Source of the DNA: Plumapathes pennacea
Taxonomy: Eukaryota; Cnidaria; Anthozoa; Antipatharia; Myriopathidae
Direction of reading: 5' to 3'
NCBI GenBank assembly: GCA_964036295.1
Contig: OZ038462.1
Location: forward strand, 37,857,680-37,921,679
DNA: 64,000 nt
The notes under the pieces are model-generated. The model was given only the letters and a program-made list of their open reading frames with translations. It did no database searches and was not told where the DNA came from. Of the stretch, positions 30,474 through 61,074 are shown piece by piece; the stretch's first letter is position 1, and each line of letters starts with the position of its first letter. Made by a program: the position numbers and the translations under genes.

Positions 30474-32929
30474 ATGGCGACGAAGTTTCCATCTCTTTTA
30501 CCTCGGTTGTCAGATGATCTCTGGTTCAGTTTGGACAAGCGACTGGACGATGACGCAGCTCTAACAAAGGAAGAGAAAGAATACGCGGCATCGGTTGGTT
30601 GTTTTTGCTTACTTTTCTGTCGACTATCTGTGTGCTTTTCCATGAGCCGTACTTTGTGACCTTTCTTAATACCAGCTTCAGAAGATTGTGGACAAGGGTT
30701 CTGACATCACACCAATCGGGAAAAGGAAAGAGGAGCAAGAGGTATGTGACAATAAAATAAAAAAATCCGAGAAAGGATTAAAAAGAAATCAGTCGATTTT
30801 GAAATCTCGATCAGAGGATAAAGATGTGCAAAACATTTAGTTGCCGAGATTGCTAAATCCAGCTTTTCTAATTTATCTGATGCACATTCCATCAAATTTT
30901 TCCTTGTTTCTTGATTTGGCTTTTGCTTAATACCTAGGCATCAGTTTTTATAGACCAATAAATTGACAATGAATTTAATATTTTATAATAATAATTTATT
31001 GTTTTGCCATTTTAAATGACTGATGGTGTCAGAGTAACTGATCACAGAGAACAGTGTAGGAACTTTCAAGTAACCAACCCCCTAATGGCACAAACATTGA
31101 GGATTGCTAACAATGAGTAATAATATTACTTACTATAGATTTTATGTAGGAATAAAACATTACAAGAAATCTTCACTGACACTGAATGAAGTTGACAAAA
31201 GAAAAGCTTGATGTACTGCACTGATAGACTAGTTAGACAAAAGTATGTCCATACAGAGATGCTTGTAAGCCTGTCTATGGGTGAAACATATCTGCCAAAC
31301 AACAACTTCAATCCTATGGATAGTTCACCATGAAAGTTGTGAAGAAGGGTGGAATACTTGGATGCTTACCTACACCTTGTGTTGGCTGATGTTTTAATCC
31401 TTTCACTCCCAATAGTGATCTACTTTGATTTTCTCCTTCAGTTTCTCACCAGAAACATATGATACAGTAGGGAGAACTTGGCTTTTGATACCTTGCTAAG
31501 ATGAAAGCTGATTAAACTATCAATTCTTGCTACATTACTCATACATTTATTCTTAAAAGGTTGGAAGAATCTACATTTTGAGCTTGGGAGTGAAAGGGTT
31601 AAGCAGTAGCTTCTTTCATTGCTCATTCAGCACATTCTTTACAGCACTGATCAGTTTGCGACAAAGTCTGCATCTGCTAGCTAGCCCAGGGTTACCAGAC
31701 CTTCCTATTTGGCTAATTACATATTCCTAACAAATTGCTGAGGAGAAAGCTGTTTGGACTGTATGGGCTAGTGACTCATGGGTACAGCTTATCCTTGCCA
31801 CACCTTGAAAATACATTTCCACCACATTGCAGCAGATACGTGATGAAGAGGACGAAGATGAAATAGAGGATGACGAAGACACTGGTGAAGATATGGAAGA
31901 TGACACAGATGAATATGAGAGTGCCAGTCCTGATGCAGAGTCCATAGAGGGCGAGGTATGAATCTATAAAATGTGCTGTCTACTCCAGTGTGGTTTGTTA
32001 AAGGTGTGTGCTTTTAGAATCAAAAGTTGGTGGTTGAGAAAAGGCTTTTTTTTTTACACCAGACCAGGTTTTTATTTCTGGACATTAGTAATTTGCAGGT
32101 AATCATTAGTCTCTACTGTCTGACAAAATGTTGGTCTGATGTAGTCCAAATTTGAACCGCTACTGTGACCAATAAGTAATGAGATGTACAAAATGTTACA
32201 AAGCACACACCCCCCCCCCCCCCCCCCCCCCCCTCACTCCCTTAACTTATGTTGTGCATTTCTGGCAATACTGAAAACCACTGAAAAATATTTTCACTGT
32301 TTCTTAGTGACACATTTGGTGAGCGAAAATTTGGCCCTAGGTATAGAAAGGCTTAGAATTGCAACTTTGACTCTACATGTATAATAACAGAGGTAACAAA
32401 ATAACTTTTGGCAGACAATTAATATTCATACATTACAAAACCTTTATAATTTAATAAGCAGAAAGAGTGCTTACATGTAGTAGTCATTAAAATGAAACTT
32501 GATGAAACTGCTGGTATAATACATTTTAGCACTGCAAAGCAACAAATATTTACAAAGCACCCTACTTATTTTGTGCATTTCTGGCAATATTGAAAATGAC
32601 TGAAAACTATTTGCACTGTCTCTTATCAACACATTTGATGTGCAAAAATTAGGCCCTAGGTATAGAAAGGCTTAGAATTGTGACTGTTAATTAAATTGCA
32701 ACTTCCACTCTACATGTATGATAACAGAGCTGGCAAAATTACTTTTGGTGGACAACTAATTATACATTACAAAACTTACATAATTATGCGGAAAGAGAGC
32801 AGCCTTACATGTAGAAGCCATCAAAATGAAACTTGACGAAACATACCAATACACACAGCAACCTTGATATCATTCTGTAACAAAGCCTTCCTATTTCAGG
32901 TTGAGATGCTGGATTCAAGTCTGATTTGA
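30474..32929 (+). CDS. ANAPC15: anaphase-promoting complex subunit 15
   Basis: Four exons, 30474-30593, 30676-30741, 31833-31955 and 32900-32929, all in phase 0, encode 112 residues (human APC15 is about 120). The N-terminus MATKFPSLLPRLSDDLWFSL matches the conserved FPSLxPRxxxxLWFxLD start of APC15. A central TPIGKR matches the VPIGK motif. The rest is strongly acidic (DEEDEDEIEDDEDTGED), as in the family, and the last exon adds only nine residues ending SLI. APC15 sits in the APC/C and promotes turnover of Cdc20 and release of the mitotic checkpoint complex. The last exon is copied at 44019-44048. Confidence 0.93.
31624..31706. repeat. inverted copy of 43113-43195
   Basis: This intronic segment of ANAPC15 (CAGCACTGATCAGTTTG, TAGCCCAGGGTTACCAG) reads as the reverse complement of sequence at the left edge of the downstream duplication. 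It is a dispersed repeat or a trace of the duplication breakpoint. Confidence 0.6.
32199..32800. repeat. tandem pair of about 350-bp repeats with a poly-C tract
   Basis: In ANAPC15 intron 3 a block with GTGCATTTCTGGCAATA, CCCTAGGTATAGAAAGGC and TACATGTAT motifs occurs twice, starting near 32240 and 32565. The first is preceded by 24 C residues (32210-32233). One such block, with a poly-C run (43353-43378), is found at 43350-43900 in the duplicated region. Confidence 0.75.
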
Positions 32930-33123
32930 AACATGAAGCTGTACCAAAATTGTAATTGTATATGTGTATGTACATATTTATAGAATTTTTGTAATGTGTT
33001 GACATGGTTCTCATTCAATGTTACGATAGAATCATTGATTCTATGAATTTTGCTTTCCTAAGTTGAATGTGTAAAATAATATGCCTTCATGCACATATCA
33101 AGGTATAAAATGCTTTTTTTTAC

Positions 33124-33129
33124 AATAAA
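33124..33129 (+). terminator. candidate polyadenylation signal of ANAPC15
   Basis: AATAAA about 195 nt after the ANAPC15 stop codon, in an AT-rich 3' flank. The matching position in the 44-kb copy is altered (ACTCTAAACG). Confidence 0.45.
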
Positions 33130-33620
33130 CATATACAATATTATCAGAAGATTGTATGTTTTTCTTTCGAAGATTTTTGCATCCATACAGGATAAATCGT
33201 TATTGGAAGAGTGGTATAAGTATGTTCTGATTTCTCTCCCTAAAAATATCCAGTTTATTTTTGCGTGCTTCTTGTTGGTTTATCTTCAACGAAAATAGTT
33301 GAGGAGGGCAAAAAAGGAGACTATGTATTTGAAAAAAACGTTTTTTGAAACGATGAGATTTCTTTTCTTCCTCACTGGTCATAGAAATATTGTTGAAACA
33401 GCCTCCGCCTCCATTTTTGTTAAAAAGGTAAACATTCGCATGTGAATTACAAAATACTGCTGAGCGGCCGAATAATTTTAGGAATGTGGAACCCTTCAGT
33501 ACGCTTTTTGCAAATAATCCACACTTTATCGTTTACATGACAAAAAAATTGGGGTGCCGTATCTGAAATAATCGGCCCATGGACCAAAATTAGGAGTGCC
33601 GGGTCCAAAACGCATGTCGT

Positions 33621-33733
33621 GTAAATGGGGCAGGGTCATGAGATGCGCACGCGCGCGTCTCACTTGAAAAAATTGGGCGAATGGTTTCAAGATTCAATCA
33701 AGCGCATGCGCGTCTCATGACACTGCCCGTTTA
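33621..33733. repeat. imperfect inverted repeat (putative MITE)
   Basis: TAAATGGGGCAGGGTCATGAGA on the left mirrors TCTCATGACACTGCCCGTTTA on the right with few mismatches. GCGC-rich inner arms follow. It is noncoding and lies between the convergent ANAPC15 and HEPN-NB-ARC-TPR genes. Confidence 0.6.
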
Positions 33734-34122
33734 AGGACCTCAAACTTGCGACAGCGTGGCGTAACCTGGGTGTATGAGTTCCGTGGAGAAATATTGCGTC
33801 TTTCTGGCCGAGCCTGTTTGACGCATAGGAGTAAACTCTGAAGTGTGTATCAACTTCGAGGCCGCAGATATCGAAATTGGTCCGCCGTAAAAAAGAGCTG
33901 ACGTTGAAAGTTCCGGCCCGTTGAGTTGGATTACCACAACCTTGATCGAGAAGTTGGTACATGCTTGTAAAGTCACACAACATTTGAGATGTGGTACCGT
34001 AGTTGAGTTTTACGGGCGACACAGAACTTTGTGGGTAAATTAGTTTAACTTCATTAGTAATCATTCTAAATCTGAACTTGGACTAAAATACCTCAAACTA
34101 GAAGTTCGATAACATATTCAGT

Positions 34123-37100
34123 TCAGTGAATGTCCACGTCAGTTTCGTCTGTGGAAGTGCAGCAGATGTCCCTGGATTCTCCTCGGCTGCCAATTGCATC
34201 TTCGCAATCTTTCACCTTTTCCATTTCTTTCTTGGCGTCAGCTTCTCGTCCAAGCTTCTTTAACACTTCTACATGCTGTCGATAAACCTTGACCAGTTCT
34301 TCTTTGGTGTCCGACACCTTTTCCTGCATCAAGGCTGCTCGTTGGATGTATTGAAGCGCTTTCTCCAGTTCTTCTGGGGATTCTGTGGATCCCTGTGCAT
34401 TGTGCGCAATTCCCAGGTCGTAGAGTGACTTGGCCGTGTCCTGGTGATCGCCAAGGAACTTGCTTCGTATCTCCAGGGCTTGCTCAAAATAGTCGATTGC
34501 CGATTTAAATTTCTTGAGCTCGTGGTAGTTGTTGCCGATGTTGTTGAGGATGGTTGCTGTGAATGGGTGATCTCCCAGCTTCTCATTGTAAACTTTTAAA
34601 GTATGATCAAGTCTGGTTTGAATTGCCTCATCGTGCTTCCCATTCAAGGTTTGCGCCACTGCAGAAAAACAAAGCAAATAATAACGCTCAGCTCGGCCTA
34701 ATGGACCCGGGATACAGGAAGAAATTATGTATATATTGTAACGTACCCATGGTCCACAAACACAGGAAACAGAGCTTCAACAACGTCCAACTGTATTAAC
34801 CTCTCAACAGTACGTCGACTCATACAAAACTCATACGAGATTCTCATACAAACGCCCGTACAAAACTCGTACAACAACCGCTTGTGATCCCTTTTATACT
34901 AGATACACGCTAACCGATTCGCTATCAGTCGCCACTTTAACGGACTTTACTACATACGCTAACACTTAACGGATAACAAACGAACTAAACTTGCACAGTC
35001 CGTGAACGCCTCGCGCATTACATTTGACTAACGAACTCAACTCAATACTTGCTAGCACCTAATGCTCGCGCATTACACTAATATGTTACCTGTAAGAGGA
35101 ACAGAGACAGCCTTGTGCAGCAGTCAACCACAAACGCAAGAAGCAACTAACGTCAGTAAAAGCAACAACAGCAACCACTAACAGCAAAGGCAACAATAAC
35201 TATATAGAAACACTGACGAGAAGGTGAAACTCGGAATTCACAATGCTGGAGTGACAACAACATCAAGTACGACCTTGAATTAACAATGGTGATCCTCATA
35301 AAATGCTAAATGTTGAGCAGTAAAGCAGTATTCAATGTTATAAAGGAGCATTACTTTTATTTCTGTTGGTTCAATTATACCTACCGGCGAGGTCATTGTG
35401 GGTAGCAGCCAACATCACTGGGTCCTTCTGAGCGTTCTTTCTTCGAATTCCAAGCGACTTTTCAATGAGTTTTCGTCCCTTTTTAAAGTTTCCTTCGAGC
35501 GCGTAGCAACGCCCAAGCTTGGCAAGGCACTGAGCACGGCTGTTGTCTGCGATGTCTGTCTTGGCTTCGAGTGCTTTGATGAAGCGGTCTTTGGCTCTCT
35601 TTTTGGCGGGGTCACACAGCTTTGGGGAGCAGGAGCAACTGAAAATGATCTTGATGCCCATTGATATCCAGCACTCGGTCACCCTTCTCTCGTCCCCTTG
35701 GCATTTTTCAGCCAATTTGGTAAAGATTCTCTCAAATTCATTTCGTCGGATCAACTTTGCTAGCAGTTCGCCCACTCTGTTGAAGGTGTCTACGCATTCT
35801 TTCCTGAGGCTGTCGTCCATAAACGGATCTTCAGCGCACCAGTACAAGAGTTGTTTGATGTTTTCCTCCTCCTCCTGATAGGCCTTAATGGCTTGAAGTG
35901 AATTCATGCTATAGAATTTCTTGAATAGTTCCTCCAAGCACACAATGTAATGGTGGATGAAGCGTTGTTTGGCATCATCATACGTCTGCTGAAGTTGTGA
36001 GTCTTCCTTGCATGCCAAAGAGCAGACCCCACTGATCGCTGCCAAAAAGGCATATCGCGATCCTGGTGTCTCCACCAGTAAGGAGTGGTCGACCAGGTTT
36101 GTCAGATGTATGCTGACCGTCTGCTGACCATCCTCCAGGTTGAGAATGTGTTTTGCTCTCTGCATGGTGAAAGGACCCTTGAGTACGGACAGTTGCACCA
36201 AGACTTTCTGCAGCAGGGGTTGAAGCCGTTCAAAGGACTGAAAGATGCGCTTGATAATGTTGTCTTCATCCGAAAGGCTCGTCATGTTCATCATGAATTC
36301 AGCGAAGTCTCCTGGAGGAGTGCTGCTCAGCTCTGTGATAATTTCTGGATTACGGATCAAGGCCAGACTTCGAAGCATGAGTGGTATTCCTCCTCCAAGT
36401 TTCAGGACCTTCTCGGTTCCTCTTTCGCCGAGCTTGCATTGAAGGTTTTCAAGAAGCTCTACTGAATGCTTGTCACTAAAGGCATTCAGGCAAATACATT
36501 CCTGATTCAAATCAGGAAACGTCATATGTTTCCTGCTCGTCATCAGGATTGAAACATTTTTAGCCGTCTTTCCAATGTCTGACACAAATCGCAAGACGTG
36601 CTCTTTTGGTTTTGGGGTGCAGATGTCGGGCTGACTTTTGAAAGTACTCGTAGAGGGTTGGGACGTCTTAGCTTTTGGGTACAGAAGATTGTCAAAATTA
36701 TCTATAACAAGCAAAGTCTTTTCAGTCTGAGAGCATAACCGTTGAATTGCTTCTGAGATGGGCTTGTCACTTGGAAATCGGTTGAGGTGATTCACGATCT
36801 TGTGTGCCAGCTCGTCTAAAAAGCGCATAGGTCGGCAGTTAACGTACAAAATTTCCCAATCACCAGTCATCATATCGTTTGCCACTTTTAGAGCTGTTGA
36901 TGTTTTTCCAATGCCGGGAGGGCCTATAATAGAGATGAGATTGGCTTGCCTTGAACTTGATAGGTGGGACCTAATTTTCTGGCATTCATCAACTCGGTTC
37001 ACGAAGTGGCGGTAAGTGATGGGAAGGAAGCATCTGAAAGCCTCTGCAATGGAAATGAAAAATATTTTATGGACGAGATGTCGTGGTGAAAGTATGTTAG

Positions 37101-38302
37101 AGAAAAATACGGCCTAATACTCTAAAACTTCTGAAGCCAAAGGTCTTTTCCTGGACACTACGATGCTGCAAAGAATTCAGAAGGTCGGTGGTTTAACTTC
37201 TCATCCTGTATATTTCCGTAGTTTACACAACGGAAGGCGGGAAACGCTTTACCTGCCTTGATGTGATTGAATTCAAGTGCAGAATTATAGCCTTCACGCT
37301 ACACGAACAGTTTCACTCAGTGAGTACGTCATAACCACAGTGCGCTTTTCCAAGGGAAGTAATTCAATTGCATTTGTGGTATATTTAGTTTGGGAACTGA
37401 AGCCGAGGGTTTTGATACTATCCATGGCTCAAGCTACACCCCAAGTGGCCTTACTATGTTTGGACCCGATATCAAGGATAATCGCTTGCGGGGGATCCCA
37501 GAGCAGAAGCATGCAATACCAATCAATCTCAAATACACTCATCAATAGTCAGTCTGCTGTAACAATTGTATAACAGTTGTGAGAAAGGCTTACCCTCATC
37601 TGCAGTGTGCGACGATCGGTCTCCCAGTTGCAGCTTTATTTTCTTAATATCCTCTTTTATATCTTGCAACTCTTTTTTTACTTCATCAAAGTTGCACCAG
37701 TCGTCCAGGTTCTCTACGTAGCGTGAGGCATCGATTGTGGATGGAACCTTTTTCTTCAGTTCAACCATGGCTTGCTGCCATTCTTCGCCTTTTGCAGTAC
37801 TGACAGAACCAGCCAAGCGCCTTAGAGCCTCGCTGATCTCCTTCCACAGAAATTCCATCATCTCATTGCTGATCTTCATCTCAGTCACATGTGCATAGGT
37901 GGTGTTACGATAGTACTTTACTCTCGCCAGGTCATCGGAAACGCTTTTATCTGCGGAACCGGGTAGCGTATCCCACCGGCCAGACTGGGGAGCTTCAAGG
38001 TTACAGATATGAATGAGCAGCACGGATAGTAACGTTATGTCAAAATCAGTTGACTTCCCGTAGCCTCCCCCCGAAGGATACAAACACTTCCACTGTGGGC
38101 TTACGTTTCCCAATCTCTTCAGTTTTCCTTTGATTTCAGGATCGGCTAATACATCAGGGAGGGTGGATGGTGGATGGATGGAATCAAACACTTCCCTCAG
38201 GATTTGGGTTCCGCCTGATATCAACAGATGGACAAGATGTAGGAAGTTCTTCCTTTCGGGAGTTAGTTCTAATGCTTCTTTGGCAGGACTCGTCTTATCC
38301 AT
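34123..38302 (-). CDS. HEPN (DZIP3-like)-NB-ARC-TPR protein, copy 1
   Basis: Exons are 37594-38302, 35385-37043 and 34123-34658, with both junctions in phase 1, giving 967 residues. Exon 1 (1-236) is a DZIP3-type HEPN domain with the ribonuclease-type motif RNTTYAH (Arg132, His138) and a charged helical end. Exon 2 is an NB-ARC-like STAND ATPase: FVNRVDEC, Walker A GPPGIGKT (277-284), Walker B LLVIDNFD (about 347-354), sensor ILMTSRKH and GGIPLMLRSLA. A winged-helix/helical region and TPRs follow. Exon 3 carries kinesin-light-chain-like TPRs (NNIGNNYHELK, SLYDLGIAHNAQG). The plan is that of NLR/APAF1-like cytosolic sensors. The role in immunity or cell death is inferred from architecture. An acceptor 5 bases before the ATG suggests an upstream noncoding exon. 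Confidence 0.88.
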
Positions 38303-38307
38303 GGCCT

Positions 38308-39230
38308 CTGTATTGATACGTCAGAGGGAAAAAACAGAGATAACTTAGCACATGTTTTATTTTTAAATCTGTTTCACTGATAAAGAAAATAAATTATACA
38401 AATACATTAATAAAATGTGCTGACCAGAAACACGCACACATAGGCGTCGTGGCAGGGCAATGGCATCACCCTACGCTAATACCACAGGCCAACATAAATA
38501 TACAATAATACTAACATAATATACATACTAACATACATACACCGACAATTCGCAGATGTCCCCTACTCAACTGGTTGGGGATATGATCTGTGATTTCTAC
38601 TGCACGTGTGTATGTGTTGATTTTGGGGGAAACCAAGTGCTGTTGGAGGTTATCAGTGGTTCTCCCGTGAGACTACGTAAATTATCTGTTTTTCCGCTTT
38701 ATAGTTTTGACTGAAATACATTGTCACAGTAAAGGAAATTGCTATGTAGCTTTGGCTGCTCGAACTGCACAAAGAGCGGGAAAAAACTCGTCTTTATTTC
38801 TAATAAGAATAATAGCACGACCGTTACTAGTTGTGTGACCAGGTGTTTATTGATGCGCGAATATTGGCCTTTGGTATGAACATCGTTTTAAAATGTGTTA
38901 CTGTACGTCTTGAGCTTACAGCCACCTAAATTTGTATTTATATGTATTTTCATTAAAAATATGTTTTAAATAGTTGACTATTTATAAACGAATAGATGCT
39001 TTGCGCGTCCAGTGACTGACGGCGGCCATTTTCGTATCATACGGAAATGGCGGATTCTCATGTTTTTCTATGTTTTATTGCAAAATAATTCAGCACAAAC
39101 TTAGAATACGGCAAGCAATGACAGTCAGATCGATCAGTCATAACGTGAGCTAACGTGGGCGCCTCAGGAAAGTCGAGCTCCAGATGAAAATATAAACATG
39201 GGCGCGCAAAGCATCTACGGTGAGAGGGTC
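38308..39230. other. 5' flank of copy 1
   Basis: No coding sequence was seen. It should hold the noncoding first exon and promoter of the HEPN-NB-ARC-TPR gene, but neither could be placed. Confidence 0.35.
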
Positions 39231-39234
39231 TCTT

Positions 39235-39515
39235 TAACACCCACTCCGGGGATCACGTTGTTTAAACATTCCTTGCATAGGTACTCTATGACGATAATGT
39301 TTGAAAAGCTTTTCGCTTTCTTCAGCATAAAAAGCTTCATGAGGTAAGCGGTTTTTAATTTAGCACCTCGCAGATTTCGGGAATAAAATGGAGCGGCTTC
39401 CTCTATTCCTTATTTGAACTGTCGTGACTGCATTAAAGAGTTCATTTTCAGAAAAAATCCTTAGTTAAATAGAAGCTGACAGTCTAGTGATATTAAAAGT
39501 TAGTTCCTGTACGTG
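39235..39515. repeat. dispersed repeat, copy at 61075-61345
   Basis: The segment with CATTCCTTGCATAGGTACTC, TTAGCACCTCGCAGAT and AAAATGGAGCGGC occurs again in the same orientation near the right end of the window. It is noncoding. Confidence 0.8.
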
Positions 39516-41668
39516 CAAGTTTATGATCCTTGGCGAGTGTTTACTATGTTGTGCATGAAAAACTCCTGCATGCGGAAATTTTTAACTGTCAGATCAAACC
39601 GAACTGAAAGTAGCCACGAGTTACAGACTATTTATAAACGAGATTACAAAAGAGCAGTGTCTTCTTAAACGGTAATATGACAACATTTGTACTTACATTA
39701 TCGTTCGAATATGTCGCTGTCCGATTTCCTTTCATAAGATGGCCGCCATGTCGAGAATCGATCGAGAAGTGTTAGATCCGGCCACCGCTGAACCGCAGGC
39801 CTCTGTTTTGGTTGAAAAGTGTGCTCAAGCAAAGGAATCTCTCTTTGGTATTGGCTAACGAGGATTCAAGGCAGCATGGAACATCGACACATAAAAAAGA
39901 AAGCCCATTCGGCTCCGGCAACAACACTGATCCCTCTGATGACGAGTGACATGCCTCGTTGACTCCCAGTAGGACCATTATAATAGTGATGATGTTAGCA
40001 TTTATATAGCGCAAATTCTATGTGTGAATTAGTGATATGGTAATGGATGACAGTTCACAGCACTGGGAAAATTTCCCTGCTCTTTTCGAGAAGTTTGCGA
40101 GTTTAAAGTCCCTCATATTGAATTAGTAAAGATTGCCGACTAGATCAACGGCTTAACGTCCTCACCTAAGGACGGAGGGTAGCTCAGACAGGAACATAGG
40201 TATGACAAACCTATTTGAATACAGATAACTTTTGTGATGCTTGTTTACTAGTTTTGTTTCATATAAAATCCTATTATCCTTAACATTAATGTGTGTGTCG
40301 TGTACGAACATTTAGTTACACCGTTGTATGCCCGTCTGCCCCTTGTTACCCGAGGTCACGGCTCTATATTTTTATTGGCAAACGGTAACAGGACTAGCTT
40401 TCCGTTAAAGAAGAATTTCTTTCCGAAAACTCTCATAGAAACAATTAAATTGAGTCAGAGATAATATATCTTTAGACACTCATCTACATAGTACATCCAG
40501 CAGCCCTGCCTGTAAACGTAACACTTAAAAATTGATATTACCTTTGCAGTGTTTAACTATCAGATAATATCAAGAATAGCATGTAAATTATGCCTGCAGA
40601 TTTCACACAATGGCGCGCATATGCTGACTGGAAGTTCTCAAATTTGACGGTTGGTTCCTCTTCCTTTTGACCCCCAAAATAGTATTTCCGCCCGTTGCAC
40701 CAGCTTCTTCATCTCTTATTTTCACAATCCTTCGGGCTTCTTTTGTTTCGTCTTTTCCTCGTTTCTTTTTCCCTCTCTCTGCTTGTCTCTTTAACAACTT
40801 CGGTCATGGTCGAAGTGATCCGCCTTATAACTGCTGCTATACTGCATGCCGGGCGCGGTCTAGAGCCAAAAACTGGGACTCCTTCTCTTCACTTTAAAAT
40901 GATCTCCTTGGAGTCTTTCTTGTCGACGCTTCTGGAAGTAAAAGTTGTTTTTAATTTTCTGTTTAAACAAAAGATAATTTCATCAAATTTCGGAGATTTT
41001 CTGATTGGCAAGCTCCAATGAAAACTGGACGTAATCCTGCTCCTTCTTCATCTTCTCGTCATTATTTCCGAACAAGAAGTCATCTCTCATGTATTCAGAT
41101 GAATCTTAGTTATGACAGAACTCTCCGAGCCTTTCTAATTGCTGTGGTCCAAAGACAACTGGAACTTTCAGAGGAATCCTCCTCCTTCTCATATCTCCTT
41201 GTCTTCATTGTTTGCCTCCAAACGGGACTTATTGCTGAAAGAAGTCTTACGAGTCTTTCTGATCGGCAAGATCCCAAAGAAAACTGTCCTGCAATTGCAG
41301 TAGCGTGCTCGCAATGTCATGTGACGTATAGCCTACAATGTCGATTATCTCTTCATCGTCGTTTTCAAGCCGGACGCTTACGAATTGCCTTGAAAGCTGA
41401 ATAGAACAAACAGTCGTAATTTACATGTGATACCATTAAAACTTTATATAATATTAGCAGTTCCGCATCCTGCAGATCCCTTTGTTGCTGCCGACGATAG
41501 GAGGCAGCGACACTAATTCTGCTTTGTGACTCAACTCGTGGATGTCGGTCTGGATGATCAGTGATGTGACAACTGACGTTGCTGTTTGTGACTCGACTCA
41601 CGGATGTCGGTCTGGATGATCAGTCATGTGACAACTGATGGCCAATTGAACGCAGACATAATGCTCAG
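39516..41668. other. intergenic, no supported gene
   Basis: Small ORFs lack splice structure or family motifs. At about 41525-41640 a segment of about 63 bp with GGATGTCGGTCTGGATGATC is repeated in tandem twice. Confidence 0.45.
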
Positions 41669-41776
41669 TAGCCTGAGAAAACAGACGTCTCTCATCGCGC
41701 GCTCGATCCAAACCGAACACACTCGAGTTCGGTTTGGATCGAGCGCGCGATGAGAGACGTCTGTTTTCTCAGGCTA
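41669..41776. mobile_element. foldback MITE, perfect 50-bp arms, 9-bp target-site duplication
   Basis: The arm at 41669-41718 starts TAGCCTGAGAAAACAGACG. Its exact reverse complement is at 41727-41776, with an 8-base loop ACACTCGA. AATGCTCAG flanks both sides (41660-41668 and 41777-41785). A 9-bp duplication is typical of Mutator-like elements. The arms have no mismatch, so the insertion is recent. Confidence 0.9.
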
Positions 41777-41785
41777 AATGCTCAG

Positions 41786-43112
41786 GGGACCGTGAGAGTT
41801 CCTTCGTTGTAACGAATCGAGTATCAAAGTGAAACATCGCCTGATCTTCCTGATAATCTCTGCCAAAGAAGAACACGTTACATTCGCGATGTACCAGCAA
41901 ACGGTATGTCTTTCGTGTCAATGCATGTGCCCCTCAATGTTTATCTGTTTCATCATTTGGCTTTACATTTGGTGATCCATGTGAGTAAAAAATAAATAAA
42001 CTGCACTCTGACTTGAGATAACAATTTTTGTCGTTAACGCTCGTTTCTTCGCTGTTGACTCGATACCGCGTTGCGTTACTCACGATTAAATACATGTTGC
42101 GAGGGTCAATCACGGGCATTCACTGCTGGCAATCCATTTCTTGTGCAAAATTCAAAGCAGTATGGACACATGTATTTTGTGTGCAACCTCCTCAAAATAA
42201 TTGGCGACTTATGAACAGATTTTGGCAGATTTAAATTCTGAAAGAGCCTTCGACCGATGAAGACGAAAGGAGAGATGTCATGTTGTTTGGACTTTATACA
42301 ATGGCGGAGGTAGTACGAACGCGGATTCTTGTAAGCTTCTGATCTGTCCAAGACAGTATGTTTCTTCGTTGCGTTTATCAGAGATGGATTTGTGGAGTTA
42401 TTCGTCTTGATATTGACCGCGAAGCAAATCCGTAGGAAAGAAATATCGTTCAATTTCTTCGTGAAACTGACTTTGTTTATCACCACGTGGCGATGCACTT
42501 CGCACAATTATTTCCAGTCCGCTTGCTAATTTTGCTTCTATTTTGTCTGCAGATTTATTAGATTTGCTTTAACGAGATCGATCTGTGAATTTAGAATATC
42601 AGTCTGAAGTTTAGAACCATTTCACTTAAGTTTTGTATAATTCGCTGTTCGGACTCTTCGGATGGACGAACGCTGCGAACAAAATATTTCATTCAGTGGT
42701 TTATAATTTCAGGTTATATTGCATTTTGAATTATCTTTTGTCCTTTTTATTATATGTTTTGGTCATGTATTCTAGTTTCAAATAAATTTTAATTAGGAAT
42801 GGACGGAGATCTCGCTTCTGTAATTACTGCGCATTTGGTTTATTTTTGCGAGTCGCGTTGCGTTATCGTTCCCGTACAACTTCCCATAAAGGAATTTGAA
42901 GGTATAGCTGCACGCGTTATTTCTCCAGGAGTGAATGGGTTAATAGATTTAGTTACAGTTGTAAACAAGAAAGAAACTTTCTTGCTTCCGTGTTCTGACT
43001 TGTTTTAATCAGCTAGGGTAAGCCTCGGCAGCATTCACCTGACCTTTGGTTACTTCTAGTATTTTCTCTATATTTTAGCGAGTTAATAAGCAGTCATACA
43101 AAGTTCTCGTAA
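41786..43112. other. intergenic, no supported gene
   Basis: AT-rich sequence. The short ORF at 42799-43008 has no recognisable domain or splice sites and is not called. Confidence 0.4.
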
Positions 43113-46100
43113 GAAGGTCTGGTAGCCCTGGGCTAACTAGCAGACTTAGATTTTGTCACAAACTGATTAATGCTGTGCCGAATGCTGTAAAAAATGTAAA
43201 AGCGCCTTTTCAATACTGTCAAACAAAAATTGGTCCAATTTGGTCTAAAGCTTAACCAGTACTGTGATTTATAAGTAATGAAAATGTCAAGAGTAGTTCT
43301 CGTTTTAATAAAATCAGTGTAGCACAGTAAAGCAACAAACATTTACAAAGCACCCCCCCCCCCCCCCCCCCCCCCCCCTCTCCCCCAATGATTTTGTACG
43401 TTTCTGGCAACATTGAAAATCACTGATATTTTATCTGATACTTAATGACACATTTGGTGTGCAAAAATTAGGCTTCAGGTATAGAAAGGCTTGGAATTGC
43501 GATTGTTTGAAATCTAAGGCATACTAATTTACTGCTTTCACTTTGGCAATACTATATACAAAATGTAACTAACACACAATTATTGCTATCACCGTGATTT
43601 GTATTCTCCAGATAAATTTATCTACAAGTTCTAAAAGCACTGCAATGGTCATGCTCTAATTACGTGCAATCACCTCATGCAAGTCATTTGCATCTAAATC
43701 TTATTACAGTACTACAGTGTAAAGATGTCTTGTCACCAAACAACCCCATGAATCTAACAGAGAGCCGAGGCTAATATAGGGACAGGTTGTCTCCCTGATA
43801 GCCTGACGAGGTTATCTAACATTACTAGTGAATGCAGTCCACTCTTCATGTGCAATAACAGAGATGGCAAAATTACTTTTTTGGAAAACTAATTTATACA
43901 ACCCTTAAAGAGTGCGGCCATTGCAGTCATCAAAACGGGACATGACAATTGGTTAGATTCCCAGAACATAGTCACAGCAATCTTGATACCATTCTCTAAC
44001 AAAGGCTGCTTATTTCAGGTTGAGATGCTGGATTCAAGTCTGATTTAAAACAGGAAGTTGTACCAAAATTGTAAATATATGTATGTACATGTACATGTTT
44101 ATATTTTTGTAATGTGCTGACATGGCTCTCATTCAATACTATGATAGAATCAATGTATTTTACTTGAATGCATAAAATAGTATGCCTTCGTGCACAGATC
44201 GGTGCTTAAAGTCGTTTTCTACTCTAAACGCATACAATATTATCATAAGATTGTTTTTTTCTTCTGAAATCAGATTAAAAAAATCAAATCAAATTTGACT
44301 TATCCTCAATAAGTTAGATAGCATACTGAGTGCTAGTTAGACTGAGCCTTAAAATCTGAAAATACTAAATGGAATATAAATTCTACAAGATTAAAATGAC
44401 TTATAAAATTCACATTGCACACCATGTAAAAATCCATACACGGATAAATCCGGGCTTTAGTACGTTTTGATTTCGCGCCCTAAAAACATGCAGTATGTTT
44501 TCTGTACTTTATGTTGGCTGAAACCATTTAATGGCATTGATTACGAGACAGTGTGTCAACCTCGATACTGAAGATGGTCCGCTGTAAAAAAAGAAGCTAA
44601 AATATTGAAAAATTGTGGCCTCTCAAATTGGATTACTGCAACCTATATCGATAAAATGGTACATTGTTGCAAGGTAACACAACGTTTGAGATGTGCTCCG
44701 TGTTTAAATTTTACAGGGTGACACAGACGTCCGTAAGTAAATTAGTTTATTAAACTATTTATCATAACACGAACTCGAACTAAAATACCTCAAACTACAA
44801 GACAGCACTGCGAAATTATTGCGTTCCGGCCCGTTGTGCACGTTTCATCGGTGGAAGTGCAGCAGACGTCCCTGGATTCTCCTCGGCTGCCAATTGCATC
44901 TTCGCATTCTTTTACCTTTTCCATTTCTTTCTGGGCGTCAGCTTCACGTCCAAGCTTCTTTAACACTTCTACATGCTGTCGATAAACCTTGAGCAGTTCT
45001 TCTTTGGTGTCTGACACTTTCTCCTGCATCGAAGCTGCTTGTTGGATGTATTGAAGCGCTTTTTCCAGTTCTTCTGGGGATTCTGTGGATCCCTGTGCAT
45101 TGTGCGCACTTCCAAGGTCGTAGAGTGACTTGGCCGTGTCCTGGTGATCGCCGAGGAACTGGCTTTGTATCTTCAAGGCTTTCTCAAAATAATTGATTGC
45201 ATTTGTGTAATCCTTCAGCTCGTGGTAGTTGTTGCCGATGTTGTTGAAGATGGTTGCTGTGAACGGGTGATCACTTAGCTTCTTACTGTAAACCTGCAAA
45301 GTATGATCAAGTCTGGTTCGAATTGCCTTTTCGTGCTGCCCGTTAAATGTTTGCGCCACTGCAGAAGAACAAAGCAAATAAAAATACTCAGCTCAGCCTC
45401 ACAGACTCGGGCTACGGGCTATATGTTACTTGTAGGAACAACAGGGACACCAGACAAGCATAACCGCAAAAAGCAACTGACGTATTATTTAACAGTAACA
45501 GCAAAAACAGCAGCCACTAACAGAAAAGGTGACAATAAATATAGTAACATTGATGAGAAGGTGAAACTCGAAGTTCAGAATGCTGGAGCGACAATAACAT
45601 CAAGTACGACCTTGAGATAACAATGATGATCCTCACAAAGTGCTAAAGACTGATCAGTAAAAAGGCATTACTTAGCCTAAGAATACGGTATTCACTGCTG
45701 TAATGGAGCATTATATTTGTGCTGATTTAATTATATACCTACCGGCGAGGTCATTGTAGGTGGCAGCCAGCATCACTGGGTCCTCCTGTGCGTTCTTTCT
45801 TCGAATTTCAAGCGCCTGTTTAATGAGTCCTCGTCCTTTTTGAAAGTTTCCTTCGAGCGCGTAGCAACGCCCAAGCTTGGCAAGGCACTGAGCGCGGCTG
45901 TTGTCTGCGATGTCTATCCTGGCTTCAAGTGCTTTGACGAAGTGGACTTTGGCTCTGTTCTTGGCGGGGTCACACAGCTTTGGGGAGCAGGAGCAACTGA
46001 AAATGATCTTGATGCCCATTGATATCCAGCACTCGGTCATCCTTCTCTCGTCTTCTTCGCATTTTTCAGCCAATTTGATGAAGATTCTCTCAAATTCATT

Positions 46101-47720
46101 CCGTCGGATCAACTTTGCCAACAGTTCGCCCACTCTGTTGAAGGTGTCTACGCATTTGTTCCTGAGGCTATCGTCCATGGAAGGATCTTCAGCGCACCAG
46201 TACAGGAGTTGTTTGATGTTCTCTTCCTCCTCCTGATAGGTCTTAATGGCTTGAAGTGAATTCATGCTGTAGAATTTCTTGAATAGTTCCTCCAAGCACA
46301 TACTGTAATGGTCGATGAAGCGTTGTTTGGCATCATCATACGTCTGCTGAAGTTGTGAGTCTTCCTTGCATGCCATAGAGCAGACCCCACTGATCGCTGC
46401 CAAAAAGGCATATCGCGATCCTGGTGTCTCCACCAGTAAGGAGTGGTCGACCAGGTTTGTCAGATGTATACTGATTGTCTGCTGACCATCATCCAGGTTG
46501 AGAATATGTTTTGCCCTCTGCACGGTGAAAGGACCCTTGAATACGGACAGTTGCACCAAGACTTTCTGCAGCAGGGGTTGAAGCCGTTTAAAGGACTGAA
46601 AGATGCGCTTGATAATGTTGTCTTCATCCGAAAGACTCGTCATGTTCATCATGAATGCAGCGACGTGTCCTGGAGAACTGATGCTCAGCTCTGTGATAAT
46701 TTCTGGACTACGGATCGAGGCCAGACTTCGAAGCATGAGTGGTATTCCTCCTCCAAGTTCCAACACCTTCTCTGTTTCTCTTTCGCCGAGCTTGCATGGA
46801 AGTTTTTCAAGAAGCTCTCTCGAATGCTCGTCACTAAAGGCATTCAGGCGAATAGGTTCCTGATTCAAATCAGGAAACGTCATATGTTTCCTGCTCGTCA
46901 TCAGGATTGAAACATTTTTAGCCGTCTTTCCAATGTCTGACACAAATTGCAAGACACGCTCTTTTGTTTTTTGGCTGCAGATGTCGGGCTGGCTTTGGGA
47001 AGTACTCGTAGAGGGTTGGGACGTCTTAGCTTTCGGGTACAGAAGATTGTCAAAGTTATCTAGAACAAGTAAAGTCTTTTCAGTCTGAGAGCATAAGTGT
47101 TGAAGTGCTTCTGAGATGGGCTTGTCACTTGGAAATCGGTTGAGGTGATTCACGATCTTGTGTGCCAGCTCGTCTAAAAAGCGCATTGGTCGGCAGTCAA
47201 CGTACAGAATTTCCCAATCACCAGTCCTCAAGTCGTTTGCCACTTTTACAGCTGTTAATGTTTTTCCAATACCGGGAGGGCCTATGATAGAAATGAGGTT
47301 TGCTTGTCCTAAACTTGATAGATGGGACCTAATTTTCTGGCATTCATCAACCCGGTTCACGAAGTGGCGGTAAGTGATGGGAAGGAAGCATCTGGAAGCC
47401 TCTGCAATGGAATACGAAAAATATTTCATGGACAAGACTAGATATTGTGCTAAAAGTATGCTAGGGGAGAAAAATACGCTTATATTACTCTAAAGCTTGA
47501 ACCCAAAGGTCTTTTCCTGAGCATTACGATGTTGCAAAGAATTCAGAAGGTCTGCAGTTTAACTTCATATACTGTATGTTTCCGTAGCTTACACAACGGA
47601 AGGGGAACGCTTTACCTGCCATTATGCGATTAAATATAAGTGCAGAATTATAGCCTTCACGCTACACCAGCACTTTCAAGGGAAGCAGTTCAATTATATT
47701 TTTGGTTTATTTAGTTTAGG
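43113..47720. repeat. segmental duplication of about 32.1-37.4 kb
   Basis: The order of intron block, poly-C tract, last ANAPC15 exon, TPR exon, intron and NB-ARC exon is the same as at 32.1-37.4 kb and in the same orientation. Similarity continues into the intron upstream of the NB-ARC exon, to about 47720 here and about 37395 in copy 1, and stops before the HEPN exon. The left edge carries the inverted copy of 31624-31706. Confidence 0.85.
44019..44048 (+). pseudogene. orphan copy of the last ANAPC15 exon
   Basis: After an intact TTATTTCAG acceptor it reads VEMLDSSLI then TAA, the same peptide as the true last exon (which uses TGA). Flanking intron and 3' UTR sequence match as well. Exons 1-3 of ANAPC15 are not present upstream, so it is a passenger of the segmental duplication. 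Confidence 0.85.
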
Positions 47721-50700
47721 ACGCATGCATGTCCAATACCACAGCTCGTAATGCGCCTTTTCCTCTAGTCACCTTGGTTTTGACCGACCAAGGGATTCAT
47801 TTCTTGTTTCGAGTCGCTCAAAAGGTACGATAATTCAACAAAATAATATTGTATCATATCTATTTTATACTACAATAATTTATTGCCAGTTACATTTTTG
47901 TTGTTTTCGTAATGTTTTATGAATTGTTGAGGTATCCAAGGTGGCATAATAAAGTTAAGTCGTATGTCAGTCAGTCAGTTGGTCAGTCCGTCGGTCAGTC
48001 TGTGACCTCCAGGCGCGGTGACTAAGTAATTCAAGTTTAATTCATTACGGTGTTTTTTACTACAAGATGCAGTCGGTCGGCTGTAAAATGCCCAGATATT
48101 ATGCCTTGCATGGGAGGCACGTTTGTGGCCGTAAAATGAATGAAACGATCTCTTTTTGGCATCAACTGCAGCCAATCTGAGCACAATCCCAGACGCCAAT
48201 ATCTTGTTAAAACTCAGTTACTTCTTCAGAAAGGATCAGCAAAATACAGTCAGTGGAAATCGAACAATCATGCACCGTGGCATATTTCACCGTTTGACGT
48301 CAAATGTGGCACGATATAAGAGTTTCTGATTTTGCTCTTGTTAAAACCCTTGCATTCAAGTTTGGTGCACGGAATAAGAGTTTCTGATTTTGCTCTTCTG
48401 GTGGCGCTTAAACAAGTTTGCGCCCGTGAAAATGGTGAGCCCTTTTGGTAAAACCATTATTTTATGGTCAAAACCTTTAAAAATTGCACGTGTAAAAATG
48501 ATGAATCCTTTATGAACCCTTTTGGTGGAAAACATTATTTTATAGTCAAAAGCATTAACAATTGCGAGTGTGAAAATGGTGAGCCCTTTTTGCTAAAACG
48601 ATTGACGTTGACAGAAGCTAAGTTTTGACAAGACTGCCACCAGCGCTTAATGCAATGGAGATTGTAGTAGGGCTGCTTTATATTTCGAAATCACTGAACG
48701 ATAACTTAGACAATATTGGATTTTGTTTCATTTACTTGAAAAGAGATGAAACTACGACTTTCAGGAACTGGTAAGTTTTTAGTAAGTACAGTTGACGAAC
48801 AGCATGCTAATTTTTAGTCTATGTTATCACTCTTGTACTTCAAAACTTGCCGTGTATTTTGTGGTTTGATGCCCCGGGAGCTGTGATAAAGGCCAAGTAG
48901 GACTACCTTTTTGTTAATTTTCGAGCTCCTTGAGATTGCCTTCGTACAAGATGACCTTTTCAGGGTCGGGGTCAAGATAACCTTTTCAGGCAGCTAGTTT
49001 GAAGCTTGCGACTGAGACTTAAATTTTCGTAATTTACATATTTCAGAGATTTCGAAAGAGTAAACATGCGACTCTCGTTTTTAGTTTAAATTTGATACAC
49101 TCGAAGAAACGTAATTTATACAGTAGCAAAGTAAAAAATTATACACGTATTTGGCTAGGATGCCGCGTTGGCTTGAGCAATCGCGGCTTCTGCTTAAACT
49201 AGAAATACGATAATCGCAGATACCCCCTCGCTCTGCCATTGATGGGACTTTTACTTTGGTACTCCCAACAAGAGTAGCCTTTGTTTTACCGAAATGTTGA
49301 CTCAATCTTTTCTTCAAAGTCAAATGCTACACGCAAAGGAAGGAGAATGGTGTGTGTTATACTTTTGCGTTGAAAAAAAAAAAAAGAATCGTGAGTGACG
49401 GAGTACGTATTTCCCACGGTCGGCACGACAAATTAGTTCATACAGTCTGCCAAGCACGTTCTCAAAATCTAATACTCAAATTTTGAAGTTGGTCGGCCGT
49501 CGTAGTACGGGAAAAAAGAAACATTGATTTTCCAATTTTGAATTCATAGGCAGTACAATTAAATAGGCTTCCTGAGCAATTTGTTTTTACTCTGGACTGC
49601 ATGTACAAGACTCAGGCATGCATGTTTAATGAGCTCGAATTGTTTTGTACGTGAATCCGCTCAAAACAACATGATTTCTCCCAGAATCAAAGCAAAACTT
49701 GAACGGTTTACTTCAAATTATACACGGGCTTCAGACCTAGTCATACTTCTAAGGGCTTGTGAACGATTCTCGCTGCAATCACCGCATGTCAAATTACAGT
49801 ATTTGTTACAGTTTTAGTCTTGAAAGAAATAATAAGACATCTGACTAAATCATTCAAGACTCCAAGTTCCGATTGCTCTGAGCGAATACGGTAGCCGAAA
49901 CTGGCGACAGAAGCGTATTAAAACAATACTTCGAGGGAAAATGATCAGCATACAGATTTTAATACATTCTTGAAGTGATCGAGTTACAAGATACGGGTAG
50001 AATATTTGTCACGGTGATTGTTCGATTTCCACTGACTAACCTTTGTTGCTTGTCCTTTCTGAATAAGTATCTCAGTTTAACACAAAACGGCGTCCGATTT
50101 GCTTTCAAGCGCTGTTCCCTTTGCGGAGCCGTTTCTTCGGCACGCTTCCGTTTATGATGCTGTCGTTTATCACATGTTTGTCGTCTTTTCTCTAGACGTA
50201 TTTGGCGCTGTTCGATCGTTTGACGATTTCGCCTTGCCCGTGCCTGTTCCCTTCTCTTTTGAAGACGAGCTTCGCGAGACTGTTCTGTTTCAGGTTTTCC
50301 AGTTTTCAAATTCATTTTCGTGAACGCAGTTACGTACAATTGTTGTCAGTAAAATTAACCACTGGTCAGTAAAACCAGACGCTAATCGATAATTATTACG
50401 TCATTGCCTTAGGCACCTGGCCTAAAAAGTCGTACGCCAGACAGACAGACTGACTGACTGACAGACGAACATTAAATTTCGAGATGGCGACACGCTTGGA
50501 GTCTTCGAATGAGGCGATACTACTGCATTAGCGTTGTGATTATTTCCTTCGCTTCGCTCGGGTATTAAAGAGACTCTAACATCAAAAGGACGAGGATGCT
50601 CCTCGCGATTTTCGTTTTGACCTCTACAAGGTAGTAAGATGGGCGTTCCTCTAATCATTTTAACTCATAAAAGGTACGAATAAAAGTGTACCAAGAATTT

Positions 50701-51386
50701 ATAGTTTCGATGCCTTTAACTGCTATAAAGACCCATGCAATAAAAGTTGCCACGTCAAATAAAAATGTCAGCGTTTGATGTTGAGAATCCAGTACCAAAA
50801 CCGGTATTTTCACCACTAAGAGGTACGACGAGCATCCCCATTCTTAGGTTTTGGGAGTTTTGGGACTCCCCTCCCCCCTTCCCCCGTCCCCTCGGATACA
50901 ACCATGGAACTATGATTCCTAAAAACGATCAATAAACGATCAATAATCTCCAAACGGAAAATAGACAAGAATCCCACTTTCCGAAAACCTACCACAGGGC
51001 GAGGGGATATCTGCGATTATTGCAATTTCTAGTATTTCTCGGCCCTTTTATTTCCGGTCGTAAAATTACTACACCGAACATGGCTTACCAGTAGTAGTCT
51101 CACAGTATTTTTCCGCTAGACCCTGCTTGCCTTCGCGTCTCAATGCTTCTGCCAGCACGCAGAAGGTAGCAGCCCTCCCTTGGTCGTGCCACTTCTTTAA
51201 TATCGCAAATGCCTTTTCTTGAGGACAGGGGTATTGAACATTATTGCTCCTAATTCCATCGATTACAGCTCCAGTCAAACCAAGTTGAATCCCCAAGGTG
51301 TCCCAGTAATCACCGAGCTCCTTGGCTAAGTCATTGAGCACTTGTAAACTTGGTATGCCCTCAAGTTGCACGGTATTCGCTTCCAT
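44790..51386 (-). CDS. Death domain-NB-ARC-TPR protein, copy 2
   Basis: Exons are 51089-51386, 45743-47401 and 44790-45358, giving 841 residues if joined. Exons 2 and 3 are near-identical paralogues of the 34.1-37.0 kb gene: GPPGIGKTLT P-loop, LLVLDNFDNLL Walker B, ILMTSRKH, GGIPLMLRSLA and TPRs. The C-terminal 15-20 residues differ. The HEPN exon is absent. Exon 1 encodes 99 residues with a Death-domain pattern (LNDLAKELGDYWDTLG, LGLTGAVIDGI, AFAILKKWHDQG, LAEALRREG) and ends in phase 1 at a strong donor (CTG/GTAAGCC), matching the phase-1 acceptor at 47401. The 3.7-kb intron holds a repeat element. The join is inferred. The alternative is a truncated gene starting at an ATG at 47429 in former intron. 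Confidence 0.72.
47955..50665. mobile_element. degenerate TIR element A inside the copy 2 intron
   Basis: Both ends carry TGTCAGTCAGTCAG-type inverted sequences. The right end (50415-50600) is the reverse complement of 61525-61690. Internal blocks (for example GATAATCGCAGATACCCCCT at 49208) recur in element B at 61.5-63.86 kb. A minus-strand ORF at 49959-50339 is Arg-rich (QKRREQARARRNRQ) and resembles linker regions seen before transposon helicases in cnidarians. The class is not certain. Confidence 0.6.
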
Positions 51387-51399
51387 GGCTTGCGATGAC
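51387..51399 (-). promoter_or_regulatory. 5' UTR end and acceptor of the Death-domain exon
   Basis: The minus strand reads TATTTTTAACAG/GTCATCGCAAGCCATGG, so a splice acceptor lies 13 nt before the ATG. This suggests a noncoding first exon further right (not found). Copy 1 likewise has an acceptor just before its ATG. Confidence 0.5.
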
Positions 51400-51404
51400 C
51401 TGTT

Positions 51405-52280
51405 AAAAATAACCAGTATGAAGCTTCAAGATCCCGTTTGTTTCAAGCAAGGTCAGGCTAACCCTGGGTTAAGGCCATGTAACACGAGGCAATTTTTCTT
51501 GCAACTTGCTATGCAACGCCATTGCGGAGACAAGGAGTGCAGAAGAAATTGCGTGTGCGACACCCTACTTTGCAACTGCAACTCAAAAAAAAAAAAAAAA
51601 AAAAACCCTACGAGACAATTAGTTGCAAAAAACGTCATGTCATGAGGAGCCGCAGCCGGGTTGAGCCGTAAGTACCCGTTGCTAACCAAGCTGTTTTAAT
51701 CCCAATTAACTGCGGCGAACAAAGGTGTAAGCAAAACAGCACGCAAGCGCCTCGATCCTTGGGGTGAGAATGTTTCCCGTGGGGCAAACGCCAGCCTGCT
51801 GAGCTGCTTTGTGAAAGCCGGATATCAAGAATTCACTGAGCTTTGGGGCCGTTTTGCTGTATTGTTTTGAGTCTCTTCAAAGTTTGTCATTTTTTCTTCG
51901 ACAAATGGGCTGATACACTAAACTATTGCGCAAATTTAAAGTAACCGTCCGTCGCCGAGTAAAATTGACAACTTTTTATCCTATCAAACTGAGCTGATAC
52001 ACAAGATTGAAGCGTATATCAGTCTTGGAAAAAAGCCAATCGCTACAAAAACGGTTTTACTTGATTTCAACTTCACTTCCGTACAATATTCCCTCCCAAA
52101 GATTTGTGTCGAAACGTCCACTTCCTGGGAACATTGCAGCAACTAAGATTCTGTCTGGTCAGGTAGTAATAGAAAGACCCCAAATGGCTGAAATTTCAGG
52201 TCCAAAAAAGCTGAGATGTTTACTAAGATCTTATTTGTGTTTTTGTTTGAGTTACGATCGCGACGACAAGAAGACTGCTG
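51405..52280. other. intergenic, repeat-derived
   Basis: A poly-A tract lies at about 51587-51604. The 52060-52200 part is a diverged copy of the repeat described at 52300-52880. No gene was seen. Confidence 0.5.
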
Positions 52281-52299
52281 AAACTGGACGGCTACAAGC

Positions 52300-52880
52300 T
52301 ATTTTACTTGAATTTGACTTCACTTCCATACAATGTTCCTTCACAAAGATTCGTGCCGAAATACACACTTCCTCAGAACATTGCAGCACTAAGATTCTGC
52401 CGGGTCAGGTAATAACCGAAGTCGTAAAATATATATCCGAAATTATAGTATTTCGCAGTAATAGTAGCCGGTTGAAAGCCAAGGTGTTCTCTTTTTTTCG
52501 CACAAGGTTGCGGTTCAGCTCAACGGCCCCCAAACACCACTAGCTGAAAACACCAGTAGAGTTCTCGACAAAAACTTCAATCAAACTAAAAATACTTCGC
52601 CCTGTAATTGATCAAAGACCCAAACGACCATGTACGAGTTAATGCTCTTGTACTTTCTGTGTGAGTCTGCCCGGAGTTTTGTCTTGTGTTCTCCTAACAA
52701 AGCTTAATTTAGCTTTGAACCATTCATTTGCCGCAATGAGTAAAATACATTCCATAAAGCTGCCTGCAATCTCCAAACATCAATCAGTTTTGAAAATTAA
52801 ACTTAACCTTTCGCTATGACTATACAAACCTTTGGGCCTGCATGAGCTTACAAGTAACCATGTTATGATCAGATAATACT
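52300..52880. repeat. dispersed repeat, second copy at 58520-59075
   Basis: Segments such as TTGACTTCACTTCCATACAA, CACACTTCCTCAGAACATTG and AACGACCATGTACGAGTTA are shared in order with 58520-59075. A diverged direct copy lies at 52060-52200 and an inverted one at 59880-59960. The ORFs at 52007-52543 and 58131-58736 are made of this repeat. Confidence 0.8.
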
Positions 52881-53784
52881 ATATTACTAAATTTTCGATT
52901 CCATACGCGAGAAGGGCGACGTTTTTGCTAAAACAGCTGCGTTTGGAGTATCTGCTGGGCTCCTGAGGGAGTGAGGATTTACTATTTGTGGTTCTGCTTT
53001 TTTTCCCGCCTTTCGAACAAATAATATGCTTCAAGTCGCCGGGTAAGTAATGAAGTTGCGCCATGATCGTTCCGTATTTAATGCATTAACTCAACCAAAA
53101 CAGATTTTTTTCCTCTCCTACACAAAGCTTTCAAGCGGCTCGCCCAAGCTTTTGGAGAGGAAACTGTGGCTTATTTATTCCGATTTGTTTTTCGAGCTTC
53201 TCGGCCTATTTTTCCTCTCCTACACAAAGCTTTCAGGGTGTCTCGAAAACTAAGACCTAAGGACCTCGAAAACTAAGACCCCCAAATATACGCTAAACGA
53301 TTCGATCGTTTCTTCTTCCAATTGCTTTTACGGGAAGCTGGTTGAGGGAGACTTCAAACAATGCAGTAGCCATTTCGCACATCACGAGCCAGAAGTGCAC
53401 ATTTCTATGGTGGCCGAGGAGTGTCACCTTTGAAATGTCATTTTATGTCGATTATTTTATCAATTTTCTCTTTTTTAATATTTGTAATTTAATTTTCTTT
53501 CTTTCTTTTTTTTTCTTTCATTTCATTTATGTTTAGTTTCGGTCTTTTTGAAGTTAAAAGAAAATCGAAACAAAAAGAAAATCGAAACAAAATTATTTTT
53601 AAATGAAAATGAAATGAAAATCTTCGTGGCCGAGGAGTGCCACCCTGGCCGAGGAGTGCCACCCCACCCTAGTGGGGAACCTTTTGTAGAACGAGAGACC
53701 CTGGTAGTGAGCTCCAATATGGCGGACTCATCAGCTCCGTGGAAAAACGATCATAGGTTACGGGAAGCTTTGGAAACGCACGTG

Positions 53785-56397: not shown

Positions 56398-56400
56398 TTA

Positions 56401-56663: not shown

Positions 56664-56669
56664 TTAAAG

Positions 56670-60872: not shown

Positions 60873-60889
60873 TATAGATTGTCCCTCCA

Positions 60890-61066: not shown

Positions 61067-61074
61067 AAATTATG

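Follow-up and report, generated by a model that had tools for sequence, protein, structure and literature searches.

In the NACHT/NB-ARC genes of the coral Acropora digitifera, N-terminal effectors were proposed to have been shuffled after the NACHT/NB-ARC-repeat types had diversified (Hamada et al. 2013, as summarised in PMC4083563; sources cited by PMC number are represented here by parts of their text). The present work describes a pair of NLR-like genes in a 64,000-nucleotide (nt) stretch of the genome of the antipatharian Plumapathes pennacea (assembly GCA_964036295.1, contig OZ038462.1, positions 37,857,680 to 37,921,679), which is referred to as the window and numbered from its first letter. 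The two neighbouring genes have paralogous NB-ARC nucleoside triphosphatase (NTPase) exons and TPR exons, the first copy being headed by a HEPN_DZIP3 exon and the second presumably by a Death-domain exon. This locus gives a new and clear case of the effector shuffling already proposed, and what it adds is a resolved view of the phases and of the point where similarity ends.

The closest described systems show parts of this arrangement. The A. digitifera repertoire also has NB-ARC with TPR, Death among its N-terminal effectors and loci that are paired or tripled, but the part of that account covered gives no sister pair with a resolved intronic breakpoint and phases and does not mention HEPN (PMC4083563); TPR was reported in 57 of 489 Acropora NACHT/NB-ARC proteins (PMC7642931). 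In Porites and Pocillopora, NB-ARC occurs mostly with TPR, many NACHT/NB-ARC proteins carry an N-terminal DZIP3-like HEPN and tandem duplication is pervasive, but the text covered describes no adjacent HEPN versus Death pair (PMC10236652). HEPN–NACHT fusions are widespread in anthozoans (PMC8260672), and in an early description of APAF1 homologues from Nematostella, amphioxus and sea urchin the single CARD was replaced by other N-terminal domains and WD40 by TPR (PMC2246300). In pearl oyster, Death or DZIP3-like HEPN are likewise alternative N-termini, but on NACHT instead of NB-ARC and with no resolved sister pair in the part covered (PMC9646362). The zebrafish NLR-B30.2 genes also have N-terminal types that vary by NACHT group, termed exon shuffling, together with NACHT gene conversion, but they encode NACHT-LRR-B30.2 proteins with N-terminal peptide repeats (PMC4852459). 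Fungal NLR pairs with 80–99% identical nucleotide-binding oligomerisation domains (NODs) on different N-termini were tabulated and interpreted as swaps (PMC4986451), and the present pair likewise carries unrelated N-termini on near-identical NODs (88% NB-ARC protein identity); the fungal pairs have fungal effector domains, whereas here the genome is of animal type, the copies are adjacent and the similarity ends in a phase-1 intron. The titles and abstract openings listed in literature searches gave no report of the present pair or of another adjacent HEPN/Death NB-ARC–TPR sister pair.

The locus is most simply explained by a single partial tandem duplication with its 5' breakpoint in intron 1, which would have left the copies behind unrelated effectors, HEPN_DZIP3 in copy 1 and Death in copy 2; a probability of about 0.6 is given to this reading. 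This is the history that we infer from an anatomy, a set of phases, an end of similarity and a constraint on both copies that are shown by the sequence. Both genes lie on the minus strand, with about 10 kb between them and every exon on that strand:

37594..38302, minus strand: first coding exon of copy 1, HEPN_DZIP3; 709 nt, phase-1 end, AGG/GTAAGC region; Pfam E 7.3e-34
35385..37043, minus strand: NB-ARC/STAND NTPase exon of copy 1; 1659 nt, phase 1-1; motifs GPPGIGKT, LLVIDNF, ILMTSR and GGGIPLML; Pfam
34123..34658, minus strand: TPR exon of copy 1 with stop codon; 536 nt; TPR_12 1.6e-21
51089..51386, minus strand: Death-domain exon between an ATG and a phase-1 donor, presumably the first coding exon of copy 2; 298 nt; Pfam E 5.7e-11
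45743..47401, minus strand: NB-ARC/STAND NTPase exon of copy 2; 1659 nt, phase 1-1; 93.2% DNA identity with copy 1; motifs intact
44790..45358, minus strand: TPR exon of copy 2 with stop codon; 569 nt; TPR_12 2.7e-26
37348..37395, minus strand: 5' limit of paralogy in copy 1, last matching stretch of intron 1; blastn match to 47721-47674; alignment
47674..47721, minus strand: 5' limit of paralogy in copy 2; blastn match; alignment
47951..50480, no strand assigned: repeat element with inverted repeats in the presumed intron 1 of copy 2; inverted pairs; self-comparison; related sequence at 61540-63830

The anatomy and the coordinates of the two paralogues, first put forward in a sequence-only reading of the window, were correct. 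The NB-ARC exons differ at 113 of 1659 nt, their products are 88% identical, and both copies hold GPPGIGKT, LLV(I/L)DNF, ILMTSR and GGGIPLML, among which are the Walker A, Walker B and GxP motifs of P-loop NTPases. The TPR exons are paralogous as claimed, with their starts refined to 34658 and 45358, and the C-terminal superstructure repeats are recognised in both copies as TPR_12. Pfam NB-ARC was matched at 3.4e-6 in copy 1 and 1.3e-6 in copy 2 (26.9 and 28.3 bits, cut-off 23.5), and AAA_22 at 3e-10 and 2.1e-10. Since NB-ARC stands above its cut-off while four families (AAA_22, NACHT, nSTAND3 and AAA) score higher on these exons, the label "NB-ARC" is fair but not exclusive.

Copy 1 is preceded, as had been noted, by a HEPN exon with a phase-1 end, and the joined HEPN, NB-ARC and TPR model is open (967 amino acids, zero internal stops). 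The R-x4-6-H motif of HEPN_DZIP3 is present as R132-x5-H138. The protein collection searched held 304 relatives at E ≤ 0.001; among the 120 listed, which are gene-caller open frames, the R is kept in 119 and the H in 118, the start Met falls in the same column in 114, and 105 have no upstream sequence. A protein assigned by its source to Orbicella faveolata (P0144), 48% identical, is among the relatives listed and, taken with the domain composition, agrees with a coral-like anthozoan origin of the window. The AlphaFold2 model was entirely helical with a predicted local distance difference test (pLDDT) score of 80, and both R132 and H138 lie within helix 121-138. The donor scored 8.8 bits with a simple weight matrix.

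The Death exon gave 42.8 bits in Pfam (cut-off 22.6) over profile positions 3-81 of 86, with weak matches to the death domains of CRADD and RIPK1 (E 0.006–0.009), and its single-sequence structure model showed six helices at low confidence. Fold comparisons of the HEPN and Death models were too weak and are not used as support. The phase-1 end and the strong donor described for this exon are both present (9.1 bits with the same matrix), and it is the nearest Pfam-recognisable exon upstream of copy 2 on the same strand. Random sequences were generated with a first-order model of 47402-56000, and 1 of 300 contained an ATG exon of 90 or more codons that ended in phase 1 at a donor scoring 8.5 bits or higher; the real interval holds one such exon, the Death exon, along with two shorter phase-1 candidates further upstream (39 and 17 codons) whose donors are stronger (10.4 and 10.3 bits, respectively). 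The acceptor of the NB-ARC exon and the T-rich stretch before it are conserved in both copies. No Pfam domain at E ≤ 0.05 was found in the three minus-strand frames of 47402-51088 and 51387-61300, in scans where stops were replaced by X and from which short or split domains could escape. From strand, phase, donor strength and the lack of a domain-bearing rival, the Death exon is predicted to be spliced to copy 2.

Each effector exon leaves one base of a split codon, and the NB-ARC exon opens with the two bases that complete it and closes with one base over. Since this exon starts in the phase in which both effector exons end, phase 1, the frame is open with either effector; the joined Death, NB-ARC and TPR model has 841 amino acids and zero internal stops.

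In a self-comparison of the window, 32188-37315 and 43335-47678 proved paralogous in a series of pieces, and 37395-37348 gave one more short match to 47721-47674. Present twice are the NB-ARC and TPR exons, together with some 2 kb of 3' flanking sequence. Toward the effector exons, no shared sequence was found at E 0.01 between 37403-43335 and 47726-56000, and therefore the 5' limit of paralogy lies inside intron 1, where DNA similarity ends between the HEPN donor (37594) and about 37395, some 200 nt from that donor. The break between the HEPN and NB-ARC exons that had been proposed is thus located. The HEPN exon described as missing from copy 2 was not found there: in tblastn against the whole window at E ≤ 10, the HEPN exon matched other places only weakly and over short stretches (best E 1.2), and the two upstream intervals scanned in three frames held no Pfam domain at E ≤ 0.05. 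The same search with the Death exon gave, apart from itself, only short weak matches (best E 0.25). A HEPN remnant near copy 2 and a Death remnant near copy 1 were both considered and rejected on these matches and on the three-frame Pfam scan at E ≤ 0.05, which covered the minus strand of 38303-44500 in addition to the two intervals named above (the plus strand and 61301-64000 being outside it).

The repeat element in the presumed intron 1 of copy 2 is about 2.5 kb long, has inverted pairs at 47951-48061/50479-50368 and 48192-48285/50094-50004, and begins about 230 nt past the end of the copy similarity; a role for it in the break is possible. It is one of two related elements with inverted repeats in the window (47951-50480 and 61540-63830), the first of which, placed between the Death exon and copy 2, contains an open frame rich in lysine and arginine (49959-50345) with no Pfam match above cut-off. 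Intron 2 is 726 nt in copy 1 and 384 nt in copy 2; positions 34719-35080 of the former, flanked by two matched pieces, have no counterpart in copy 2, by insertion or loss.

The divergence of the copies was estimated separately for exons and introns. Silent divergence (dS) was 0.136 and replacement divergence (dN) 0.055 in the NB-ARC exons (dN/dS 0.40), and 0.254 and 0.074 over 172 codons of the TPR exons (dN/dS 0.29), while the aligned intron parts were 77% identical. Changes that replace an amino acid were rarer than silent changes (Fisher p 1.3e-5 and 9.2e-5). Unique NB-ARC changes were evenly distributed between the copies against each of eight outgroup proteins (p 0.50–1.00; with P0001, 14 versus 11, p 0.69), seven of which are alike, so that the tests are not independent. 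These outgroups were the 8 best of 121 matches (120 listed), the 112 others, at E 5e-23 or weaker and 20–32% identity, being left aside, from a search that scored the 8000 candidates with the most words in common; the nearest relative among those scored, P0001, an open frame on a contig of 7437 bases, was 54% identical. A scan of viral contigs with P0001 gave zero relatives. Both copies are under constraint, and the pair is settled and kept, rather than a swap caught in the act. The claim of an effector swap "in progress" is therefore not supported, given the silent divergence of 0.14–0.25, introns that differ by 23%, the constraint and the lack of a rate difference between the NB-ARC exons. 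The term "exchanged" for the effector exons goes further than what is seen: one body with two unrelated, phase-compatible N-terminal exons stands, but a reciprocal exchange is not needed, either N-terminus may be the older, and the Death splice is a prediction.

Silent divergence in the NB-ARC exon was below that of the TPR exon (p 0.028) and below that of the introns (p 2.7e-5), the latter value coming from gapped alignments and being possibly biased. Partial gene conversion could leave such a pattern. A recent conversion tract inside the NB-ARC exon was rejected as a candidate, the longest identical run, of 93 nt, being not unusual (P 0.13), and homogenisation has been argued not to be the common mode in coral gene families (PMC10236652). 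Co-assembly of the products of both copies may be considered because the NB-ARC exons are still 88% identical and their silent divergence is lower than in the TPR exon and introns: a mixed wheel with HEPN nuclease and Death arms would couple RNA cleavage to cell-death signalling, with the gene ratio setting the output. We regard this as an improbable extension.

The working of APAF1 and the NLRs is established, and it is used here as an analogy. By that analogy, the TPR part would keep the switch off until ligand binding; sensing of the ligand would free the NB-ARC switch, which would then oligomerise. In copy 1, clustering of the HEPN domains would activate RNA cleavage, and in copy 2 clustered Death domains would recruit death-fold partners or caspases, so that the same or a similar trigger could lead to two different outputs. 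The HEPN R-x4-6-H motif has been interpreted as an RNase site (PMC3710099, PMC9646362).

Several observations weigh against the reading of a partial duplication with a Death-headed copy 2, as do the alternative starts of copy 2 described in the next paragraph. A sequence search of PDB with copy 1 gave 54 matches at E ≤ 0.01 with no APAF1 or NLR chain among them; they were TPR proteins, which match its C-terminal repeats, replication factor C chains, and designed or engineered chains. With respect to the mechanism, the parts of the sources covered state that neither Trichoplax nor cnidarians have yielded a RIPK1/2 orthologue, that recognition of pathogen-associated molecular patterns does not seem to be a property of TPR-type NLRs (both PMC6321704), and that Death-domain adaptors went undetected in Acropora (PMC4083563). 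A protein search with the Death exon scored 4 candidates and gave zero homologues at E ≤ 0.01, and the fold comparison of its low-confidence model was insignificant, with two DNA-binding chains outranking the death-fold entries. The Death-to-NB-ARC join itself is predicted from features of the DNA.

Copy 2 might be an effector-less NB-ARC–TPR gene, with the Death exon forming a small gene of its own or opening some other gene. Such a gene could start at the ATG at 47429, which is missing from copy 1 and whose frame runs through the acceptor (MKYFSYSIAEAS), or in a 28-codon ATG exon that ends at 47773 with an 8.1-bit phase-1 donor, closer to the second NB-ARC exon than the Death exon, which is 3.7 kb off and beyond the repeat element. 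However, the acceptor and its T-rich stretch are preserved in both copies, the context of the ATG at 47429 is poor by the Kozak rule while the Death ATG has GCCATGG, and the minus-strand scan gave no Pfam domain in the interval that separates the Death exon from copy 2; on balance, this explanation is rather unlikely. It is very improbable that some or all Death-exon transcripts continue into copy 1, so that the products would be Death-HEPN-NB-ARC-TPR or Death-NB-ARC-TPR and the pair would act as one locus with alternative effectors. An acceptor-like site just upstream of the HEPN exon (exon edge 38307, AG followed by AGGCCATGG) is in frame with phase 1, so the HEPN exon could take a phase-1 donor and a Death-HEPN join would be open, but two exons would be skipped over 12.8 kb, in most of the listed HEPN relatives the gene call begins at the same Met, and no observation requires such splicing. 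The same gene models could also have arisen if the whole HEPN gene had been duplicated and copy 2 had lost its HEPN exon, perhaps by a repeat-linked rearrangement, with a resident Death exon substituted. Much of what is presumed to be intron 1 of copy 2 is taken up by the repeat element, and HEPN exons of this sort occur often in the protein collection searched (304 matches), which lends this history some weight, but neither a HEPN remnant nor shared sequence was found upstream of the breakpoint, the element begins only after about 230 nt of unmatched sequence, and one event more is needed than in the partial duplication; it is considered unlikely. A partial tandem duplication broken in intron 1 is thus retained as the preferred explanation.

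Other genes were recognised in the window. A second tandem duplication, of proprotein convertase exons (S8 pro-domain, Peptidase_S8 and P domain), occupies 3385-7699 and 9138-12587, with longer blocks 90–96% identical and two shorter ones 71–76% identical. USP38-like deubiquitinase exons lie on the minus strand at 16574-17962 and 20912-22042 (UCH 3.5e-34, Usp38-like_N 1.6e-76). On the plus strand, a TANC1-like NTPase with ankyrin repeats at 23425-25791 (HTH_TANC1 7.7e-31) is a distinct NTPase gene near the pair, and an open frame at 30282-30659 matches subunit 15 of the anaphase-promoting complex (APC/C) at 7.7e-10.

Effector shuffling in NLR-like genes has elsewhere been deduced mostly from mismatched trees or domain lists, as far as the parts of the sources covered show. 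The present pair locates the break in intron 1, tolerable because of the phase-1 boundaries on both sides, and shows both copies retained under constraint. It is a natural pair for asking whether a single sensor body drives two outputs.

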